Shown here: piece by piece, positions 1 to 1,307 of the stretch
Position numbering within the stretch: the stretch's first letter is position 1
Layout: the number at the start of each line of letters is the position of its first letter
Source: Deltaproteobacteria bacterium
GTDB taxonomy: Bacteria; Desulfobacterota; Syntrophia; Syntrophales; JAFGHS01
Length of the DNA: 64,000 bases
Direction: 5' to 3'
Assembly (NCBI GenBank): GCA_016930075.1
Contig: JAFGHS010000015.1
Location: forward strand, 1-64,000
Program-made: the position numbers and the translations under genes
Notes under the pieces: model-generated
The model's database searches: none
The model's input: the letters and a program-made list of their open reading frames with translations, nothing else
Told to the model about the DNA's origin: nothing

Positions 1-79
1 ACCACCATTTGGAATTCTCTTCGTCCCAAACGGCGCGCACTTCCCGATCATCAAAAAAACGGATAGATATTTTATGCAT
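1..79 (-). CDS. Bro-N/DinD-like protein, N-terminal fragment cut by window edge
   Basis: Only the first 26 codons are in the window. The ATG is at 79-77 and the reading frame is open to base 1. The start reads as a short basic lead followed by IRFFDDREVRAVWDEENSKW, which resembles the opening of Bro-N/DNA-damage-inducible-D-like proteins (from memory of the family). Such proteins are often encoded inside type I restriction operons, which fits the hsdS remnant upstream on the same strand. The ribosome binding site seems to be supplied by the neighbouring palindromic repeat: its GGAGGGG arm ends 8 bases before the ATG. The family call rests on about 20 residues, so it is tentative. Confidence 0.5.
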   Translation of the reverse strand, partial: MHKISIRFFDDREVRAVWDEENSKWW

Positions 80-81
80 AT

Positions 82-558
82 TTATTTCCCCTCCTGTGGA
101 GGGGTGCCCGTCAGGGCGGGTATATTCCCCTCCTGTGGAGGGGTGCCCGTCAGGGCGGGTATATTCCCCTCCTGTGGAGGGGTGCCCGTCAGGGCGGGGT
201 GGTTACTTAAAAATGTAACAACCCCCTCCATATTATTCAGTACGTCACCTGCTGATATACGAATTACCGTTAACCCCAACCCATTCAAGAAATTATCTCG
301 TGCTCTATCAGCCTCTATCTTACTATCGTGCGAAGTCCCATCAATTTCAATAACCACACCCTTCTCAGCGCAATAAAAATCGACAATGTAATTGCCGATA
401 ATTTTCTGCCTGTCAAAATCCAACCCATGCAGTTTTCGGGATTTAAGCTGTTGCCAAAGCAATGCCTCATGCATTATTCCGGCCCTACGCAAGGCTCTTG
501 CCCTTTCACGCAGATTGGGGTTGTAAGGAAGTGATTTGTATTTCTGCGTCGCTCTCAT
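82..558 (-). CDS. DUF559 (Vsr-like fold) nuclease-family protein with repeat-encoded C-terminal tail
   Basis: A 158-residue protein. Residues 1-120 match the DUF559 family, predicted PD-(D/E)xK endonucleases related to very-short-patch repair enzymes: an alpha-helical lead with E31, then IVDFY with D60, then VVIEIDG with E71 and D73, and the usual closing stretch LTVIRISAGDVL. The biological substrate of the family is unknown. From about residue 121 the protein is translated from three tandem 39-bp DNA repeats, giving a 13-residue unit PALTGTPPQEGNI twice and a clipped third copy, so the tail is probably not part of the fold. The ATG overlaps the TGA of the upstream hsdS remnant as ATGA, and an inverted copy of the same repeat lies directly before the start and offers a GGGGTGG ribosome binding site. 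Family call firm; function not known. Confidence 0.8.
   Translation of the reverse strand: MRATQKYKSLPYNPNLRERARALRRAGIMHEALLWQQLKSRKLHGLDFDRQKIIGNYIVDFYCAEKGVVIEIDGTSHDSKIEADRARDNFLNGLGLTVIRISAGDVLNNMEGVVTFLSNHPALTGTPPQEGNIPALTGTPPQEGNIPALTGTPPQEGK
86..203 (+). repeat. Three tandem 39-bp palindromic repeats
   Basis: Units start at 86, 125 and 164, exactly 39 bp apart. Each holds two hairpins: CCCCTCC-tgt-GGAGGGG, then GCCC-gtca-GGGC. The last copy ends in CGGGGTGGT, a 9-base block also present in the inverted copy at 561-602. Because 39 is a multiple of three, the units stay in frame inside the DUF559 gene on the minus strand. The unit nearest the left edge also supplies the Shine-Dalgarno of the gene starting at 79. 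Confidence 0.95.
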
Positions 559-719
559 GAGACCACCCCGTCGCTACGCGCCACCCCTCCAAAGGAGGGG
601 AATTCTTTAAAACTTAGCAGTTCATCCCGATAATATTCATACTGCTTCTTTCGCGCCTCCAGCTCCGCCTTCAGATGTCGCGCACGCCGTTTTAGCTCTG
701 AGAGAAATGCCGTATCGTT
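555..719 (-). pseudogene. hsdS: hsdS 3' remnant (type I restriction specificity subunit)
   Basis: An open stretch of 54 codons with no start codon, bounded upstream by an in-frame stop at 722-720. Its middle reads LKAELEARKKQYEYYRDELL, the very typical conserved C-terminal end of HsdS, the DNA-recognition subunit of type I restriction-modification enzymes. After LLSF the frame runs through the palindromic repeat at 561-602 and stops at TGA 557-555, overlapping the DUF559 start codon. The last 16 or so residues therefore come from the repeat and not from hsdS. The rest of the gene is missing; the brnTA terminator begins within 20 bases of the breakpoint. This is a truncated relic that cannot act as a specificity subunit. 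Confidence 0.8.
561..602 (-). repeat. Inverted copy of the palindromic repeat flanking the DUF559 gene
   Basis: Read on the minus strand it opens with TTCCCCTCC-ttt-GGAGGGG, 18 of 19 bases identical to the unit at 164-182, and closes with CGGGGTGGT exactly as that unit does; the 12-13 bases between differ. It points the opposite way to the copies at 86-203, so the DUF559 gene lies between inverted repeats whose hairpin ends face outward. Confidence 0.92.
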
Positions 720-799: not shown

Positions 800-1018
800 T
801 TACGGTACCCAGTTCATGTTGAGCTTGCGCTTTGAAGCAGAACAGTCTCTCAGGTAAAGGTTGATAAGGCTCTGATAAGGGATGTTGGTTTCCTCTGCCA
901 TTTTCTTGAAGTAATCAACAACATCCGGGCTCATCCTGATGGTAACGTGTTTTTTAAGATTCTTAGCGTATGGATTTGGCCTACTCTTCATCTTAGACAG
1001 GTCATATTCGTTTTTCAT
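800..1018 (-). CDS. brnA: BrnA antitoxin of a brnTA pair
   Basis: A 72-residue antitoxin. The C-terminal half has the ribbon-helix-helix pattern of BrnA (KHVTIRMSPDVVDYFKKMAE, then a second helix ending LINLYLRDC). In the known family BrnA binds BrnT, blocks its RNase activity, and the complex represses its own promoter. The start lies 4 bases after the brnT stop, and the toxin-first order is the normal brnT-brnA arrangement. A palindromic element over the promoter at 1314-1341 fits autoregulation. The pair is intact and followed by its own terminator. Confidence 0.88.
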   Translation of the reverse strand: MKNEYDLSKMKSRPNPYAKNLKKHVTIRMSPDVVDYFKKMAEETNIPYQSLINLYLRDCSASKRKLNMNWVP

Positions 1019-1022
1019 GTCA

Positions 1023-1307
1023 CTATCTCCTGTAAAATTTGGCTTCGTTCGCCGTGGCCTTCCGAGCCGAAATAATTCGTATCACGGACTCTCCTTCACG
1101 ATAACAGTGACAGACCATCACGAGTCGAAGCTGAGAACTAAGTCCAAGCAGAAGGAATCTATCCTCCCATTCCGAATGTGTATCATCATAGAATTCCGTA
1201 GCAAAATCGTCGTAGAAAACCGTCTGCGCTTCTTCAAATGATACGCTATGATTCCTGAAGTTCTCTTTAGCCTTTGCGGAATCCCACTCAAATTGAAATT
1301 CAATCAT
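1023..1307 (-). CDS. brnT: BrnT toxin (DUF497), ribonuclease
   Basis: A 94-residue BrnT family toxin, the RNase partner of BrnA; by family knowledge it has a RelE-like fold and blocks translation when free. The family signature is clear: FEWDSAKAKENFRNH near the N-terminus, VSFEEAQTVF, then ED-RFLLLG and the final IRIISARKAT. The length matches the family (about 90-95). No Shine-Dalgarno is seen and the likely -10 hexamer lies only 6 bases before the ATG, so the message may be leaderless. Next to an hsdS relic, the pair looks like part of a decayed accessory island. Confidence 0.9.
   Translation of the reverse strand: MIEFQFEWDSAKAKENFRNHSVSFEEAQTVFYDDFATEFYDDTHSEWEDRFLLLGLSSQLRLVMVCHCYREGESVIRIISARKATANEAKFYRR

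Follow-up and report, generated by a model that had tools for sequence, protein, structure and literature searches.

The locus and its repeats

At the first bases of a 64,000-nucleotide stretch of DNA from a Deltaproteobacteria bacterium (contig JAFGHS010000015.1, positions 1 to 64,000; hereafter the window) lies a small gene of the DUF559 family, and repeats are found on both of its sides. The features are as follows.

1–79, minus strand: downstream gene (MHKISIRFFDDREVRAVWDEENSKWW), of which 26 codons, counted from the ATG at 79, are present before the contig end cuts it off
82–558, minus strand: DUF559 (YcjD-like) gene for a predicted PD-(D/E)XK / Vsr-like endonuclease of 158 aa, with ATG at 558 (PF04480, E=6e-31)
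86–124, plus strand: outermost tandem 39-bp copy, which on the minus strand gives the next gene a GGAGGGG 8 nt 5' of its ATG
125–163, plus strand: tandem 39-bp motif copy with truncated third strand (GGGTATA), in frame and encoding part of the protein tail
164–203, plus strand: innermost full copy of the 3'-side (right-end) triplex motif, CCCCTCC-TGT-GGAGGGG-TGCCCGTCAGGGC-GGGGTGGT, in the opposite orientation to the 5' motif
555–558, minus strand: ATGA overlap of the DUF559 start with the stop of the upstream open reading frame that reads through
557–718, minus strand: 3' stub of the upstream gene, its final codons made by the repeat (hsdS-like by eye only)
561–602, minus strand: 5'-side (left-end) triplex motif, CCCCTCC-TTT-GGAGGGG-TGGCGCGTAGCGAC-GGGGTGGT, with the purine third strand directly 5' of the ATG

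Repeat comparison confirms the arrangement given in a preliminary description of this DNA, namely inverted repeats that bracket the gene with one unit on its 5' side and three tandem 39-bp units on its 3' side. Two of the tandem units (86–124, 125–163, 164–202) are identical and the innermost is 90% alike, and they pair in inverted orientation with positions 582–603 (22 nt, 95%) and 562–586. A full inner arm had been ascribed to both sides; of the 3' units, the innermost (164–203) alone has it, and the two outer ones end in GGGTATA. The 39-nt length keeps the reading frame, and translation shows the units as the tail of the DUF559 protein (...SNHPALTGTPPQEGN-IPALTGTPPQEGN-IPALTGTPPQEGK), as had been proposed. 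On the other side the upstream fragment reads through the 5' unit and ends in ...YEYYRDELLSFKEFPSFGGVARSDGVVS, its stop overlapping the DUF559 start. The ATGA junction described earlier is therefore real, but the broken gene was called hsdS, a label left unconfirmed by a profile search in which the 54-aa stub had no Pfam match. The outermost 3' unit does place GGAGGGG before the start of the next gene, which is incomplete because the window starts at contig base 1.

The pattern CCCCTCC-n(2-8)-GGAGGGG occurs six times in the 3.8-Mb draft genome, and all four genomic copies of its n3 version are the units of the window, so that these repeats are not a product of chance. At the one other DUF559 gene of the genome (L001) the pair is a different one, with a 35-nt inverted repeat TGTCCCCCTTTGGAGGGGGTGCAGGGGGAGGTTAT, and the motif on both sides is of the same structural kind as in the window (TCCCCCTTTGGAGGGGGTGCAGGGGGAGGTT). 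Upstream the unit is adjoined by a BrnT/BrnA toxin-antitoxin pair (800–1307, minus strand; PF04365, E=2e-27; PF14384, E=1e-9), and an amidase gene (1465–2934) comes after that pair.

Repeats of the intrastrand-triplex kind

Judged by their sequence, the repeats of the window are class II purine intrastrand-triplex motifs, the structural kind of BoxC, PIT and TM-ECO. In them the pyrimidine arm CCCCTCC is followed by its complement GGAGGGG and then by GGGGTGG, which mirrors the purine arm but has T where that arm has A. This pattern of pyrimidine arm, purine arm and mirror purine third strand is perfect at 166–202 and 563–600. In the class found in the window a small inner hairpin separates the arm from the third strand. 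The units had first been read as double hairpins; a better description is a hairpin joined by a mirror-image third strand, the two being often separated by an inner hairpin. Stem and third strand are exactly concordant in 33 of 36 long-spacer CCCCT-stem motifs near DUF559 genes, a concordance partly conditioned by our detector, which requires a near-mirror and allows one mismatch. Among the 36, the variants are CCCCTCC-GGGGTGG (20 times), CCCCTCT-GGGGTGT (8 times) and CCCCTTC-GGGGTAG (5 times).

Work on BoxC/PIT-type intrastrand triplex motifs reportedly includes that of Hoyne and Maher in 2000. BoxC, PIT and other triplex repeats have been known since the 1990s from hundreds of genomes and mark unstable loci, with no enzyme, origin or function assigned to them, and folding of TM-ECO into a triplex has been demonstrated in vitro (PMC4666352). 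The motifs of the window share with them the pyrimidine arm, the purine arm and the mirror purine third strand of class II. Their spacer differs: the TM-ECO consensus has 3 nt where the window class has a long spacer with an inner hairpin. They accordingly do not fit the consensus CCCTCNCCC-n3-6-GGGNGAGGG-n3-GGGNGAGGG, having CCCCTCC stems and a spacer of 13–14 nt. An Rfam search gave sub-threshold chance matches only. The preliminary description took the element as possibly uncatalogued, which is incorrect for the repeats, since they belong to this known kind (PMC4666352).

The predicted nuclease

The protein matches the DUF559 profile PF04480 at 106.9 bits against a curated cut-off of 20.6 (E=6e-31), and PF04480 and MTES_1575 are the only Pfam families that match it. 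Its sequence finds the gonococcal protein NGO0050 (3hrl) in phmmer at E=1e-16. An AlphaFold2 model (pLDDT 81.6) searched with Foldseek retrieved the same NGO0050 structure (E=9e-7) and the catalytic domain of the homing endonuclease I-Bth0305I (3r3p, E=1.5e-4), with Vsr matching more weakly, and in the model the core and fold of PD-(D/E)XK/Vsr-like enzymes are predicted to be conserved. Alignment A1 has E31, E71 and D73 invariant and D60 and H77 near-invariant; the five residues fit a PD-(D/E)XK/EDxHD active site, their roles in it being putative. DUF559 thus has its fold class in common with Vsr and with EDxHD homing endonucleases such as I-Bth0305I. The Escherichia coli member YcjD was placed in this superfamily earlier, and it detects Vsr (PMC1189080).

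Association of the gene with the repeats

We scanned two sets of DUF559 loci with a detector that requires stem, loop and mirror third strand, and counted motifs within 300 nt of the gene. The first set comprises 31 loci from the order to which the window belongs; the second has 80 loci, which span at least 20 phyla and were collected solely through protein similarity. Such motifs accompany small stand-alone DUF559 genes at 30/31 and 60/80 loci, respectively, and relaxed or mutated versions are present at about 15 of the 21 negative loci. The gonococcal NGO0050 gene likewise has triplex-type motifs around it. Random positions in the same loci have a motif in 10 of 613 cases, and the background more than 1 kb from the gene amounts to 38 motifs in 952 kb. 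DUF559 domains within proteins of 700–1800 aa lack the motif (0/14), and so do the Vsr (PF03852) genes in the genomes of the same relatives (0/30), which sets Vsr apart despite the common fold. The presence of similar sequences beside DUF559 genes in unrelated bacteria, mentioned at the outset, is thus borne out, and the flanks of 300 bp on each side, whose comparison had been suggested as a check, do carry recurrent inverted motifs.

The geometry is strict. The nearest upstream motif lies on the gene strand at 18/20 loci of the window's order and at 44/51 of the multi-phylum set, and the nearest downstream motif lies on the opposite strand at 23/25 and 39/45 (P<0.001 throughout). At 26 of the 41 measurable loci the purine third strand stands 3–19 nt 5' of the ATG, a position that would suit the ribosome-binding site of DUF559. 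As to the restored translation of downstream genes suggested in the preliminary description, what the sequences show is limited to SD-like purine runs near start codons. The host contexts of the unit are diverse and include genes for an SLH protein, PIN, RHS/HipA, hemB and a T2SS gene, as well as pheST and sapF-fabI.

At the level of whole genomes the link between motif count and DUF559 presence is weak among 149 relatives (median 3 vs 2, p=0.016, draft genomes). Four relatives (G042, G065, G083, G069) hold 33–83 triplex-type hairpins, and no stand-alone DUF559 gene was found in them; the drafts may be incomplete, the nuclease may have been lost, or a different mobiliser may act there. The weak correlation in draft genomes together with repeats that lack the gene indicates that the repeats can persist after the nuclease is gone or be acted on in trans.

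Nuclease and repeat type are inherited together

Within a locus, left and right motifs resemble each other far more than permuted ones do, at 0.64 vs 0.21 (n=36; P<=1e-4) and, in a second comparison, at 0.53 vs 0.29 (n=15; P<=1e-4). Mapped on the DUF559 tree, motif class changes 8 times compared with at least 18 in 300 shuffles; the upstream class changes 22 times (at least 36 when shuffled) and the downstream class 17 times (at least 34). The tree is short, with 102 columns and many open forks, so that these counts are rough, yet they are far from the shuffles. The long-spacer class of the window clusters with DUF559 proteins of Bacteroidota, Calditrichota, Nitrospinota and Bacillota, and this grouping across several phyla indicates that gene and repeat type travel together between hosts. 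Some subclades (L060/L088, L068/L090) have distinct left and right motif types.

Gene-less pairs and occupied and empty sites

Gene-less inverted pairs are dispersed in several genomes. Relatives contain pairs of about 105 bp (L151–L160) with the same combination of left and right motif as the DUF559 loci L017 and L015. In Bradyrhizobium, 30 genomes each hold a gene-less pair of about 125 bp in 12 copies or more. The same genus shows several states of the pheS-pheT junction, which we compared in 58 genomes chosen non-randomly to cover those states. The two genes abut directly with a GTGA overlap in 14; DUF559 and its motifs lie between them in 30 (pheS-DUF559-pheT), an example of the occurrence in operons that had been suggested; a gene-less motif pair and a single motif are found once each, and a short spacer in 7. 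The remaining five (L186, L187, L197, L200, L219) carry an ASCH-domain gene (PF04266, E=9e-27) in place of DUF559, and this substitution points to the gap in an essential operon as a hotspot for small genes.

Two sites of dispersed pairs in Bradyrhizobium also exist in both states. At the first, the pair is present in 2 genomes and absent from the other 16–17 compared, and in G234 GCGCC(C)TAGCC flanks the pair in duplicate, a target duplication of about 10 bp seen at this site only. At the second, 3 genomes have the pair and the others do not. The comparison of occupied and empty sites in related species, proposed at the outset as a sign of mobility, therefore finds both states at pheST and at these two sites. 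Precise excision was not found among these comparisons, and the pheST states could include deletions.

Other repeats share such places. In G001 and G019 the gene-less pairs (L151–L160) are nested in an outer inverted repeat, TTCGTAAAAAGTC...GACTTTTTACGA, which also stands beside a motif in G131 (L169) and is possibly a separate MITE serving as landing site. At the two orthologous Bradyrhizobium pair sites (L354, L355, L375–L386) other species hold unrelated hairpin repeats; one has CGTCATTCCGGG...CCCCGGAACGAC ends that resemble CGTC-tagged REPs, and another has GCCCGGGTGGAGC and a duplicated GCGCCCTAGC. With other hairpin repeats at the same two sites, these are shared insertion spots.

ycjD and BoxC in Escherichia coli

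The stand-alone DUF559 gene of E. coli is ycjD, found in 3366 of 5426 complete genomes at one fixed site between sapF and fabI. A degenerate BoxC lies directly 3' of ycjD and a full BoxC before fabI; its upstream side is without a triplex motif and has a 16-bp hairpin as 5' flank (L118, L120, L121, L122). A clean empty site was not found in E. coli; strains lacking ycjD hold the eef efflux operon there, and ycjD and eefRABCD are mutually exclusive alleles at sapF-fabI. In an even-spread BLAST sample of strains, those with ycjD have 14–32 BoxC places (median 22, n=37) and those without it 2–23 (median 7, n=22); this correlation follows the phylogroups, is confounded by phylogeny and is suggestive only. 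According to published K-12 data, every close inverted BoxC pair is made of one type A and one type B copy (PMC4666352), as expected if the left end of an element differs from its right end. At ypfG-tkt (L132, L241–L246), BoxC and REP are alternative alleles across strains.

Comparison with known repeat systems

The closest parallel in logic is REP/REPIN-RAYT, and the resemblance is that short palindromes are inverted around a small single-copy nuclease gene while gene-less inverted pairs are dispersed; we found both features here. RAYTs (TnpA-REP) are HUH tyrosine transposases, and REPs have a GTAG tag. Neither a HUH (Y1) transposase, by the Pfam matches of the window protein, nor GTAG at the ends of the window repeats is present, the DUF559 enzyme being predicted as PD-(D/E)XK/Vsr-like and the ends being purine triplex motifs. 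The analogy drawn in the preliminary description is apt in the sense of "works like" and does not make the unit a member of the family.

CGTC-tagged REPs are similar as widespread palindromic dimers reported without a dedicated transposase (Di Nocera et al., 2013; PMC3733652), and they differ in their AT-starting stem, CCA tail and lack of a triplex mirror. Some long-spacer ends of the window class carry CCACCCCGTC next to the inner hairpin. A CGTCAT...ATCCA repeat did not flank the surveyed DUF559 genes except for one chance-like match. With the tag in some motifs and the defining stem and tail missing, a relation of the window class to CGTC-REPs is only a lead.

BoxC, PIT and TM-ECO themselves have been described as orphan intergenic repeats; their origin was left unexplained and no mobility function was found near the motifs (Holder et al., 2015), and neither the DUF559 link nor a two-ended unit appears in that paper (PMC4666352). 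Our literature search, which covered open-licence PMC papers, returned no report linking DUF559 to BoxC or triplex repeats. The repeats and the DUF559 family are each known, and within the papers covered their link appears to be new.

A proposed nuclease for these repeats, and the alternatives

We consider DUF559 the best candidate so far for the enzyme that spreads triplex repeats. The reading we prefer, to which we give a probability of roughly two in three, is a compact two-ended unit in which DUF559 serves as the nuclease dedicated to its own type of repeat. The association, the inverted geometry, the matching ends, the co-inheritance of nuclease clade and repeat class, the gene-less pairs and the occupied and empty sites are observed directly; that this protein is the catalyst, that its substrate is folded DNA, and how the unit moves are what we infer. 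The unit would consist of a left triplex motif, the DUF559 gene and an inverted right motif, to which the window adds two tandem right-end copies. DUF559 would recognise the purine-rich hairpin or triplex ends, probably when the DNA is extruded or folded as a single strand, and cut or nick at its own end repeats. Cutting would allow copying or insertion at new places of the gene-bearing unit, of gene-less pairs and, more rarely, of single ends, the targets usually being intergenic gaps and operon junctions, and repair of the target would leave a short duplication. The third strand (GGAGG/GGTGAGG-like) may double as the ribosome-binding site of the nuclease, and with units that are short and often frame-neutral, insertions into operons would be tolerated. 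Several facts count against DUF559 as the mobiliser. Some genomes in which no DUF559 gene was detected keep the repeats, at times in tens of copies, and the genome-level link among relatives is weak. The E. coli correlation follows clades, and ycjD has one fixed site and no triplex motif upstream. The target duplication was seen once, precise excision was not found, and the fold resembles repair (Vsr) and homing nucleases and no known transposase. With slightly less confidence we extend the reading to stand-alone DUF559 proteins in general, including YcjD and NGO0050, as probable dedicated mobilisers of bacterial BoxC/PIT-type repeats, which would form a phylum-wide minimal class of mobile elements made of a Vsr-like PD-(D/E)XK nuclease and folded triplex ends.

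The match to I-Bth0305I, second best among structures, and the location of the gene mostly between two copies of its presumed target recall a free-standing homing endonuclease that cuts triplex motifs, the motif-bracketed gene being copied into the break by recombination and the repeats pre-existing or arising as by-products; most dispersed BoxC copies are indeed single and gene-less (PMC4666352). Homing would however predict a gene inside one interrupted target with homologous flanks, whereas the contexts here are diverse; gene-less left/right pairs and the target duplication look more like insertion, and no intron or intein host was seen at the DUF559 loci. We regard this explanation as unlikely, although it is the strongest of the alternatives.

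More doubtful still is a role in repair or genome maintenance, in which DUF559 would be a domesticated nuclease acting on secondary structures, with motifs that are regulatory (autoregulation, ribosome-binding site, terminator) or kept through protein binding and with no mobilisation. The Vsr-like fold found by Foldseek on the model agrees with it, as do the fixed site of ycjD in E. coli, the third strand before the ATG, and the Caulobacter DUF559 protein VsrA, which drives a DNA-damage response in cells lacking a methyltransferase (PMC12907096); but it predicts neither downstream inverted copies nor dispersed gene-less pairs, neither co-transfer of clade and motif class across phyla nor occupied and empty sites. 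Already disfavoured, and in our estimate very improbable, is hitchhiking, in which the GC-rich triplex repeats owe their spread to some other mobile element or to a fragile-site process, and DUF559 just lands in the same unstable gaps. Repeats do exist without DUF559, some sites hold other repeats (REP at ypfG-tkt, hairpin repeats in Bradyrhizobium), and the motifs are tied to genomic instability (Holder et al., 2015; PMC4666352), yet hitchhiking is at odds with the strict orientation and spacing, the matching ends, the nuclease-specific motif classes and the zero motifs at Vsr or fused DUF559 genes of the same genomes.

Significance

The link gives a widespread, uncharacterised nuclease family and a set of orphan repeats each a partner, and as E. 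coli K-12 carries both ycjD and BoxC, both questions become testable at the bench. If the preferred reading is true, REP/RAYT would be joined by DUF559 and its repeats as a second system of repeat plus nuclease that evolved independently, and the folded triplex would be its likely recognition signal.
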